DNA of 64,000 nucleotides from Gammaproteobacteria bacterium. Its GTDB lineage: Bacteria > Pseudomonadota > Gammaproteobacteria > DSM-19610. Below are positions 6,932 through 40,726 of this stretch, piece after piece. The stretch is from the NCBI GenBank assembly GCA_026197075.1, contig JAPHQV010000028.1, forward strand, positions 1 through 64,000. The letters run 5' to 3'. Below the pieces are notes generated by a model. That model was not told where the DNA came from and did not search any database. It saw nothing but the letters and a program-made list of their open reading frames with translations. Made by a program: the position numbers and the translations under genes. The first letter of the stretch is position 1. Each line of letters begins with the position of its first letter.

Positions 6932-8290
6932 ATGTTCGAAAACCTATCGGAACGGCTGGGCCGTACCCTCAAGAACCTGCGTGGGCAGGGGCGGCTGAGC
7001 GAAGACAATATCAAGGACACCCTGCGGGAAGTGCGCATGGCGTTGCTGGAGGCGGATGTCGCCCTGCCGGTGGTCAAGGAATTCATCGAGCGAGTGCGGG
7101 AGCGGGCGGTCGGTCATGAGGTGCTGCAAAGCCTGACCCCGGGCCAGGCCCTGGTGAAGGTAGTCCATGATGAGCTGGTGCACATTATGGGCGAGGCCAA
7201 CGACGAACTGCAGCTCAATGTACAACCACCGGCGGTGGTGCTGATGGCCGGCCTGCAGGGCTCGGGCAAGACCACCAGTACGGCGAAGCTGGCACGCTGG
7301 CTCAAGGAGCGGCGCAAGAAATCGGTCATGGTCACCAGTTGCGACGTGTATCGCCCGGCGGCCATCGAGCAGTTGCGCACCCTGGCCGGCGAAGTGGACG
7401 TGGCCTTCTTTCCCAGCCAGCCCGACCAGGATCCGCTCGCCATTGCCCAGGCGGCACTCGATGCGGCCCGCCGGCAGCACGTGGATGTGCTGATCGTCGA
7501 TACCGCCGGGCGCCTGCATATCGACGCCGACATGATGCAGGAGATCCAGCGCCTGCACGCTGCCGTGAATCCGGTCGAGACTCTGTTCGTGGTGGACAGC
7601 ATGACCGGCCAGGATGCCGCCAACACCGCGCGTGCCTTCCACGCGGCCCTGCCGCTCACCGGCGTGGTGCTGACCAAGACCGATGGCGATGCCCGCGGCG
7701 GCGCCGCCCTGTCCATCCGCGCCATTACCGGTAAGCCGATCAAATTCCTGGGGGTGGGGGAGAAGACCGCCGCCCTCGAGCCCTTCCATCCCGACCGTGT
7801 GGCCTCGCGTATCCTCGGCATGGGCGACGTGCTCAGCCTGGTGGAGGAGGCGCACCAGCAGGTCGACCAGGACAAGGCCGCCAAGCTGGCCAGGAAGCTG
7901 CAGAAGGGCAAGGGCTTCGACCTGGAGGATTTCCGCGATCAGCTACAGCAGATGCTGAGCATGGGCGGCATGAGCAGCCTGCTGGACAAGTTGCCCGGTG
8001 TCGCCAGCCTGCCCAAGGGCGTCAAGGAGCAGGCCAACGACCGGGATCTGCATCGCATGGTGGCGGTGATCAATTCCATGACGCCCCAGGAACGTCGTCA
8101 TCCCGACATCATCAAGGCTTCGCGGCGCAAGCGCATCGCCACGGGCTCCGGCACCCAGGTGCAGGATGTGAACAAGCTGCTCAAGCAGTTCATGCAGATG
8201 CAGAAGATGATGAAAAAGATGTCCAAGGGTGGTATGGCCAAGATGATGCGCGGTCTGAAGGGGCGTATGCCCACGGGCCTGCCCTTCTGA
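6932..8290 (+). CDS. ffh: signal recognition particle protein Ffh (SRP54)
   Basis: GTPase subunit of the signal recognition particle, which binds 4.5S RNA and targets nascent membrane proteins to FtsY. The 452-residue protein has the N domain (about 1-90), the G domain with GLQGSGKTT at 107-115, DTAGR and TKTDGDARGG, and a methionine-rich M domain to the C-terminus that binds signal peptides and RNA. Length is normal. It is preceded by a GGGCGCC/GGCGCCC hairpin at 6889-6905. No Rho-independent terminator on its own strand follows: the hairpin just downstream has its T-run on the opposite strand. Confidence 0.98.
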   Translation: MFENLSERLGRTLKNLRGQGRLSEDNIKDTLREVRMALLEADVALPVVKEFIERVRERAVGHEVLQSLTPGQALVKVVHDELVHIMGEANDELQLNVQPPAVVLMAGLQGSGKTTSTAKLARWLKERRKKSVMVTSCDVYRPAAIEQLRTLAGEVDVAFFPSQPDQDPLAIAQAALDAARRQHVDVLIVDTAGRLHIDADMMQEIQRLHAAVNPVETLFVVDSMTGQDAANTARAFHAALPLTGVVLTKTDGDARGGAALSIRAITGKPIKFLGVGEKTAALEPFHPDRVASRILGMGDVLSLVEEAHQQVDQDKAAKLARKLQKGKGFDLEDFRDQLQQMLSMGGMSSLLDKLPGVASLPKGVKEQANDRDLHRMVAVINSMTPQERRHPDIIKASRRKRIATGSGTQVQDVNKLLKQFMQMQKMMKKMSKGGMAKMMRGLKGRMPTGLPF

Positions 8291-8318
8291 AATAAAAACG
8301 GCAGCCCGGAGGCTGCCG
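8291..8318 (-). terminator. Rho-independent terminator of the small RNA
   Basis: CGGCAGCC (8299-8306) and GGCTGCCG (8311-8318) form a perfect 8-bp stem around a 4-nt loop. On the minus strand the stem is followed directly by TTTTTATT (8298-8291). On the plus strand it is followed by TGTAACGG with no T-run, so it is not a good ffh terminator. The polarity therefore requires a minus-strand transcript. Confidence 0.8.
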
Positions 8319-8449
8319 TGTAACGGTGCTGCAACATATTTTGTTGTTCTGGTTGCTTGTAGCACTTGACCCGTGACTCTGTGCAAGGCGACGCGGTCAG
8401 TTCTCCTCCAATCCTCTTGTTATTCTTTGGCGTCTGTATCGGCGCCTGT
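8291..8449 (-). ncRNA. candidate sigma-54-dependent small RNA (CrcZ-like plan)
   Basis: Non-coding transcript of about 150-160 nt predicted on the minus strand between ffh and rpsP. Three signals agree: a sigma-54 element at 8459-8474, a Rho-independent terminator at 8291-8318 with its T-run on the minus strand, and no credible open frame between them. The RNA would contain AATAACAA at 8424-8417 inside a run of A-R-N triplets, three closely spaced GGA triplets at 8414-8404, and a hairpin (GTGCT 8365-8361 and GCAAC 8356-8352 pairing with GTTGC 8335-8331 and AGCAC 8330-8326). The hairpin loop exposes AACAACAAAA at 8348-8339. AANAANAA motifs are the known Hfq/Crc target in Pseudomonas CrcZ/CrcY, which are also sigma-54 dependent. 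The similarity is one of plan, not proven homology. The GGA cluster leaves a CsrA/Rsm role open. Confidence 0.6.
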
Positions 8450-8458
8450 CTGTACCAG

Positions 8459-8474
8459 AGCAAGTGCCATGCCA
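8459..8474 (-). promoter_or_regulatory. sigma-54 promoter for the small RNA
   Basis: On the minus strand the sequence reads TGGCATG-GCAC-TTGCT. This matches the sigma-54 consensus TGGCACG-N4-TTGCW at every position except one or two in the -24 box, with correct spacing between the -24 GG and the -12 GC. The start point would fall near 8447-8449. A GACATGTC palindrome at 8515-8522 lies about 70 bp upstream of that start and could be part of an enhancer-binding site, but it does not match the NtrC consensus. The activator is unknown. Confidence 0.7.
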
Positions 8475-8851
8475 GGTATGCCAATACATTGTTTTGAGGC
8501 GGGTAATCTGTCATGACATGTCGTATTCCTTGCGAACAGGCCATTTTTTGTAAGATATTTCGTCAGTTTGGAACAGGATCGTGACGGGGGCGATTTTAAG
8601 ATAATTCAGTATTAACAGTTAGATATGATATTGCCCCGAACAAAATCACGGAAAAATTTTCCTTGTCAGGGATTCCGACAGGTTCTGGCCCGGCCGACTG
8701 CGCGGTGCTGCATGCTCCGAACCCGGTGAAGGCAGGGCGCAAGCCCGCCACAAGGCTTCCCTTTTATACGAATTCCAGTAGAATGCGCCGTTTACCCGTG
8801 GCCCGAATCCGGGCCGGTTTGTTGTGGATTTTCGATAGAGGAAAGAATTTC
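8475..8851. other. AT-rich intergenic region upstream of rpsP and of the small RNA
   Basis: No convincing gene. This stretch would hold the enhancer region of the minus-strand sigma-54 promoter on one side and the leader of the rpsP operon on the other. It contains GACATGTC at 8515-8522 and a GGAAAA/TTTTCC palindrome near 8650-8662. A weak candidate -10 (TAGAAT, 8779-8784) has only a poor -35 match upstream. The rpsP leader is not a recognised riboswitch. Confidence 0.4.
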
Positions 8852-9100
8852 ATGGTGACCATTCGAATGACTCGGGGCGGCGCCAAGAAGCGGCCCTTTT
8901 ACCATCTGGTGGTGACCGACAGCCGTAACCGTCGCGATGGCCGCTACATCGAGCGTATTGGCTTCTTCAACCCCATTGCCACGGGCCAGGAAGAACGCCT
9001 GCGTATCGACGTGGAACGCGCTGAATACTGGATTGGCAAGGGCGCGCAGACCTCCGACCGGGTCGCGAGCCTGTTGAAGGAAAGCAAGAAGGCCGCTTGA
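8852..9100 (+). CDS. rpsP: 30S ribosomal protein S16
   Basis: 82-residue ribosomal protein of the small subunit. It begins with the family signature [18 protein letters not shown] and has the [22 protein letters not shown] segment typical of bacterial S16 split across residues about 20-41. The start at 8852 is supported by GAGGAAAG just upstream; longer upstream reading adds unrelated residues. It is the first gene of the conserved rpsP-rimM-trmD-rplS operon. Confidence 0.98.
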
Positions 9101-22879: not shown

Positions 22880-23512
22880 GCAGCTGATCCTGTTGGTTGG
22901 GCCTGGTGCCCGCAAGGCACACAGGTGGACTATATCAGGGATGCCATCAGGCTGGTTTTGTGGCCCCGATCACGGTCTGGTCGTCAAAAAAGTGGCAGAC
23001 GTGGACTGATTTCCTGCCCGATTTCCCGTGGAAAATTGCAGTGCAGCACCTAGGAAAATACTGACCTTTGTTGTAAGAAAAGTTCTGTTATGGCCACGCA
23101 TGCCACGAAGGATTTAGTCCCTCAACCCGAAAAAAATTTATAACTAAATGTTTTATAGTACAAAATAACCATCTCCTCAAGTCGCTCTCCTGTCCGGATA
23201 CGAGCAGGCGCAATCTGTACGGCCGCAGCAATAAATGTAAAATATGCCGACAAATCGGGCTCTTGCATTGTTCTTTACGGGAAAGCAGGGTAACGTGGGT
23301 CGTGCAGTCGTGGGTGGTTACATCCACCGGTCTCCAGGGATAATAAATACGGAAGATTGGGAAGACCAGACTGTAGCGTCCAAGTGCAGCCGACGGGAAC
23401 GGATTTCCACAGGAGTTCGATGCGTCTGCTGCCCATCATTTGACAAGAACAAGAGCTTTCGGCGGAGAGATTCCGCCGTGCCGAGCGTTTGGACGTGCAG
23501 GAGTCCTGGTAC
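22880..23512. other. long AT-rich intergenic region with leader mini-ORF
   Basis: 633 bp between two divergent genes, much poorer in GC than its surroundings around 23040-23260. No long coding frame with a ribosome site is seen. Features: a GGTGG/CCACC hairpin near 23315-23330, a GATAAT hexamer at 23338-23343, and an eight-codon ORF at 23420-23443 with a strong AGGAG site, in frame with the downstream diguanylate cyclase (see findings). The low GC might mark transferred DNA or simply regulatory sequence. Confidence 0.45.
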
Positions 23513-40505: not shown

Positions 40506-40726
40506 GGGTTTCCTTGCCTGTAATAGCGGTTCGCTGCCCGGTCGGGCGCCAGCCAGGTCGGGGCGTGCGGGCGGACAACCCGCAACCCGCCGAAACGGCG
40601 ACACCTGACCTCGGGGGTAGCAAATTGGATGCCACTGCAGGAAGATTTTCTAACTAATTGATAAAAAAGAGAGAAAAAAATATGGTAGGAGGGTGGTGCG
40701 GGGGAATGTGCCGGAATACCGGCGGA

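Follow-up and report, generated by a model that had tools for sequence, protein, structure and literature searches.

A sigma-54 small RNA gene between ffh and rpsP, probably controlled by PrsK/PrsR and likely to bind Hfq

In the stretch of 64,000 nt analysed here (the window; positions 1-64,000 of contig JAPHQV010000028.1, assembly GCA_026197075.1, Gammaproteobacteria bacterium, DSM-19610), ffh (6932-8290, plus strand) is followed by rpsP (8852-9100, plus strand, recognised from its translation). The gap between them raises the question of what its minus strand encodes, under which regulator and to what effect. A first, sequence-only reading had proposed a minus-strand small RNA with a sigma-54 promoter, built like CrcZ of Pseudomonas. 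The comparative data agree with the first part of this proposal: on the evidence of sister identity and of orthologous position in the family, the gap almost certainly holds a real sigma-54 sRNA gene, with a predicted transcript of ~158 nt (8291-8448, minus strand). The convergent neighbour ffh has its stop codon next to the sRNA terminator, and rpsP is the divergent neighbour on the promoter side.

The -24/-12 element TGGCATGGCACTTGCT (8459-8474, minus strand), which had been described as near-perfect, is a canonical GG-N10-GC and is conserved in every orthologue with readable sequence. One such element in 64 kb is not unlikely and is by itself not significant. Perfect matches to the sigma-54 pattern TGGCAYNNNNNTTGCW occur twice in the window, and sites with at most one mismatch occur 7 times against 5.3 expected, while the whole genome holds 25 perfect sites versus 3 in the reversed control. 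The second perfect element of the window (40619-40634, minus strand) lies upstream of a chemoreceptor-like ORF.

Transcription is predicted to start near 8448, 12 nt past the GC of the -12 element, and to end in the T-run TTTTTATTT (8297-8291) of an intrinsic terminator, whose 9-bp stem-loop (8298-8319, minus strand) shows compensatory changes in the orthologous stem. No terminator-like site was found on the plus strand at 8290-8740, and the terminator about 130 bases past the element is indeed one whose T-run exists on the minus strand only. The two A-rich motifs of the first reading are also present. The 5′ part of the RNA contains AATAACAA (8417-8424, minus strand), and AACAACAA (8348-8341) falls within the A-rich loop AACAACAAAA (8348-8339) of a hairpin predicted at 8326-8365 (minus strand), the counterpart of an A-rich-loop hairpin in other genera, although one of its inner pairs is broken in the sister species. 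The predicted fold of the window RNA is more stable than that of shuffled sequences (z = -2.5).

The window's genus is represented by two species only. In the sister species (G001), the RNA is identical at 153 of 158 positions (96.8%) and the sigma-54 element at 16 of 16, whereas identity is 78% from the element to the first upstream box, 78.5% in the next stretch and 95.8% in ffh. The excess of the RNA (96.8%) over the flanking intergenic DNA (~78%) indicates selection on the RNA. Counterparts of the minus-strand element, the RNA and the terminator occupy the ffh-rpsP gap in 16 of the 19 readable family genomes, including one orthologue (L007) in which runs of N hide part of the promoter. In the other three (G004, G008 and G009; loci L269, L271 and L270, respectively), a sensor-kinase-like gene replaces the sRNA, while ffh and rpsP are kept; the gap of G008 still has a terminator-like remnant. 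Outside the family, a pattern scan of 80 ffh loci from other genomes found the promoter-RNA design only in two distant MAG loci, L034 and L037, which have a sigma-54 element, boxes and an A-rich RNA with a terminator. With respect to the conservation on which the first reading was staked, position, promoter, terminator and A-rich motifs are kept between genera, but the detailed body of the RNA is not shared by the window's genus and the other genera of the family.

A covariance model (R1) built from ten orthologues of other genera recovers four held-out orthologues with 69-96 bits but does not detect the RNA of the window's own genus, whose RNA body has diverged from that of the other genera; there, orthology is read from the shared position, promoter, boxes, terminator and A-rich sites. 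In the ten-orthologue alignment, 94.5% of the cells pair, and 15 pairs show changes on both sides, a number that none of 500 shuffles reached (mean 7.2). Sliding the pairing partners destroyed the covariation signal, with far lower scores. The alignment holds 27 G-U cells and 5 A-C cells, which indicates that the fold belongs to the minus (sRNA) strand. Across the class, R1 gave convincing matches only within the family; the weak ones (18-29 bits), two family genomes aside, lacked both a box and a correctly positioned promoter, and they were rejected.

The upstream DNA, a control region that the first reading had overlooked, suggests which regulator acts on the promoter. A proximal box, TGACGAAATATCTTACA (8549-8565, minus strand), precedes the -24 element by 74 nt, a spacing common to the orthologues, and a distal one, TGTCGGAATCCCTGACA (8664-8680, minus strand), with one mismatch to the box pattern, precedes it by 189 nt. 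In the orthologues, the box is 17 nt long and reads TGWCG-N6-YTTACA, with the proximal copy at 74 or 75 nt and the second at 187-190 nt; the boxes of one genus are one helical turn closer (63 and 177 nt), and those of L034 and L037 are at 73 and 188/200 nt. The window box ends in CTTACA, most of the others in TTTACA. Haft et al. (2006) described, in front of PEP-CTERM genes, a 17-nt motif (motif 1), ending in TTTACA and sometimes repeated, which precedes a sigma-54 motif by a mean of 62.8 nt (range 32-92) and was assigned to the response regulator PrsR (PMC1569441). The proximal box of the sRNA and its spacing fit this published unit (17 nt, 32-92 nt). Within the family, the same unit, with a spacing of 73-78 nt, precedes genes whose products have PEP-CTERM-like tails, and also a gene for a protein of ~60 residues; the window's own genome carries one such unit (G000:C11:170020-170124), followed by an ORF ending in EVPVPAALWLLGSGLLALFGLARRRV. 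The composite box-spacer-promoter pattern was found in 47 of 369 genomes of the class (Gammaproteobacteria), mostly before PEP-CTERM genes, with 0 control matches. Elsewhere in the window, a perfect PrsR-type box, TGTCGGCATATTTTACA, occurs at 23236-23252 (minus strand), but no sigma-54 element accompanies it at the usual spacing.

The corresponding proteins are encoded in the same genome, which has two PrsR (719 and 700 bits; cut-off 503), PrsK, PrsT, two exosortases and Hfq. Each PrsR copy (G000:C3:3544-4875 and G000:C19:82404-83735) lies on one of the exosortase contigs. Because the boxes match the PrsR motif and PrsR, PrsK, PrsT and exosortases are present, the sRNA looks like one controlled by PrsK/PrsR. 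Control by PrsR, through direct binding as we infer, is considered very likely, and the regulatory RNA probably belongs to the PEP-CTERM surface-protein switch system. It shares with the PrsR regulon of Haft et al. (2006) the 17-nt TTTACA-type box, the 74-nt spacer, the sigma-54 element and the association with PrsK/PrsR/PrsT and exosortases, but the promoter here drives a non-coding RNA and not a PEP-CTERM protein gene. In Desulfovibrio vulgaris, five PEP-CTERM targets had been predicted for a PrsR-type regulator, and DNA-affinity mapping enriched all of them (PMC3333781). In the same study, the response regulator DVU0679 had an sRNA as a mapped target, as proposed here, but with another regulator and context, the D. 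vulgaris sRNA being adjacent to its regulator.

The A-rich sites also persist between genera. The 18 RNAs together contain 64 copies of AAYAA, whereas dinucleotide shuffles give 14 +/- 4; the motif is present in all 18 and is mostly unpaired, and the enrichment is absent from upstream control DNA. The longer AANAAYAA occurs 20 times in these RNAs against 1.4 expected, again mostly at positions predicted to be unpaired, and individual RNAs have 1-7 A-rich sites. The distal face of Hfq reads ARN repeats (PMC8121710), and the RNA is likely to bind Hfq. An alternative offered by the sequence-only reading, CsrA binding at three GGA triplets, fared less well: the triplets exist, but neither GGA (62 versus 73.5 expected) nor ANGGA (16 versus 21) is enriched in the orthologous RNAs, and a CsrA sponge of the CsrB/RsmZ type was rejected in view of this lack of a GGA excess.

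In the proposed mechanism, phosphorylated PrsR would bind the two boxes ~74 and ~189 bp upstream and activate the sigma-54 RNA polymerase, which would produce an RNA of ~158 nt ending just before the ffh stop codon. The exposed AAYAAYAA (ARN) sites of this RNA would bind the distal face of Hfq, and the RNA could thereby capture or titrate Hfq, in the manner of CrcZ, in concert with the surface-protein programme. As a whole explanation, a sigma-54 sRNA in the PrsK/PrsR (exosortase/PEP-CTERM, exopolysaccharide) regulon is favoured with reasonable though not strong confidence, the gene, the promoter and the box type being read from sequence comparison. Capture or titration of Hfq is tentatively put first among its possible functions, at somewhat under an even chance, since promoter, A-rich sites and terminator survive between genera while the rest drifts.

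Next comes a PrsR-controlled but ordinary base-pairing sRNA, in which the A-rich loops would serve as a handle for the distal face of Hfq (class II type) and Hfq would assist pairing to target mRNAs; this is a possible reading, though a less probable one. The conserved hairpins and a G-run in the other genera (GGGGG 26 times versus 6 expected) suggest more than a sponge, and 1-7 A-rich sites per RNA are few for one. However, neither the window's genus nor L034/L037 has the G-run, which leaves no visible seed that every member shares, and the search for a target mRNA of the sRNA found none. A-rich sites in the leaders of the co-regulated PEP-CTERM genes, considered as direct evidence for titration, numbered 8 versus 4.0 +/- 1.7 in the family, a count that includes a duplicated locus, and 7 versus 6.5 in the class, and they were not counted for either function.

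A different activator, GlrR (QseF), is an unlikely substitute for PrsR. GlrR activates glmY, a sigma-54 sRNA gene of Enterobacteriaceae (PMC6075780), and GlmY/GlmZ resemble the RNA described here in promoter type, in length and in having an NtrC-family regulator linked to the envelope state; they differ from it in box, locus and sequence, and Rfam gives no match. All sRNA-bearing genomes that were checked encode GlrR, even where PrsR is missing, and a TGTCG half-site is common to both boxes. PrsR exceeds the cut-off in 12 of the 16 sRNA-bearing genomes; among the draft assemblies that keep the sRNA, G002, G006 and G018 have no PrsR above the cut-off, and G017 has only a fragment. Conversely, G004, G008 and G009 have PrsR and have lost the sRNA. 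PrsR-type units still precede PEP-CTERM-like genes in G002, G006 and G017, so a missing PrsR is more simply explained by an assembly gap, and there as elsewhere the sRNA boxes match those before PEP-CTERM genes. The GlrR site itself, the dyad TGTC-N10-GACA, is not found upstream of the sRNA, where the boxes are TGWCG-N6-YTTACA, but is located beside glrR in several family genomes, with its own sigma-54 promoter. Downstream of glrR, family genomes have a sigma-54 promoter (G000:C26:51299-51314, minus strand; L217-L221, L230 and L232), in several with the dyad, and in several it precedes a small EF-hand-like protein. A second candidate sRNA is seen in the window's genome and in G013, where the promoter leads into a short stretch that has a terminator but no ORF; the glrR-downstream loci scanned against Rfam gave no match.

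The RNA is also antisense to the ffh-rpsP spacer, in which no plus-strand terminator was seen (8290-8740), and it could in principle be an antisense or transcription-interference element modulating read-through from ffh into the rpsP operon. This is quite improbable: the minus strand alone shows the fold, the G-U pairs and the excess of A-rich sites, and in the three genomes that lost the sRNA to a sensor-kinase gene, ffh and rpsP remain.

The RNA is very improbable as the leader of a small unannotated protein, since one orthologue (L017) does contain an SD-ATG ORF of 21 codons but no ORF is common to the orthologues, none with a ribosome site exists in the window, as first noted, or in the sister species, and the RNA structure shows compensatory changes.

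The likeness to CrcZ has to be considered separately from homology. CrcZ, CrcY and CrcX of the Pseudomonadaceae likewise are non-coding RNAs with a sigma-54 promoter driven by an NtrC-type response regulator, and they expose several AANAANAA/ARN sites to the distal face of Hfq. CrcZ is ~400 nt long, and the present sRNA is less than half of this length. The boxes are of the PrsR type and not those of CbrB, the locus is ffh-rpsP and not the neighbourhood of cbrAB, no covariance model matches, and no Rfam family matches the sRNA even up to E = 5. The CrcZ-like build thus stands as far as the sigma-54 promoter and the exposed AANAANAA-type sites are concerned, while the parallel with catabolite repression is not supported, given the PrsR-type boxes and the lack of an Rfam match, which also argue against a relative of CbrAB/CrcZ. 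True homology to CrcZ/CrcY under CbrAB, for which the promoter and the AANAANAA-type sites could be cited, is therefore largely refuted by box type and missing family match and is extremely unlikely, the neighbourhood being different and CbrAB having been described as unique to Pseudomonadaceae (PMC8871633).

The RNA represents a new sigma-54 sRNA family, plausibly CrcZ-like in action without being CrcZ. PrsK/PrsR has so far been a switch for PEP-CTERM proteins defined by comparative genomics. A full-text search of open-access papers found none that ties exosortase or PEP-CTERM regulation to a small RNA; the words for both subjects occur together in PMC3333781 and PMC8092127, of which the first makes no such link. 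It is conceivable, at less than even probability, that PrsK/PrsR also makes an Hfq-capturing RNA, forming a second sigma-54/two-component/Hfq-titration circuit, of an evolutionary origin independent of CbrAB-CrcZ, that ties the state of the envelope or biofilm to global post-transcriptional control. An sRNA under this type of promoter would add a post-transcriptional arm to the control of exosortase and exopolysaccharide functions, with a bearing on floc and biofilm formation. It would also mean that the combination seen in CrcZ, of sigma-54, a response regulator and A-rich sites for Hfq, has arisen more than once.

Other PrsR-type promoters were also seen before sequences of a different kind. 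At L160, L163, L166, L175 and L179, they are directly followed by a conserved protein of ~60 residues (MNAKVEKKINGxSVTANP..) without a PEP-CTERM tail, of which L235 and L236 have more distant versions. At L255, in another family (that of G101), some 110 nt (~110) free of ORFs come after a PrsR-type promoter, 3′ of position 1500, and then a GC-rich stem with a T-rich tail, possibly an unrelated sRNA of the PrsR regulon. At L254, a tiny ORF rich in Gly and Met (MGGGMGGRGGMGGGGM..) stands under such a promoter, and behind it lies a strong hairpin.
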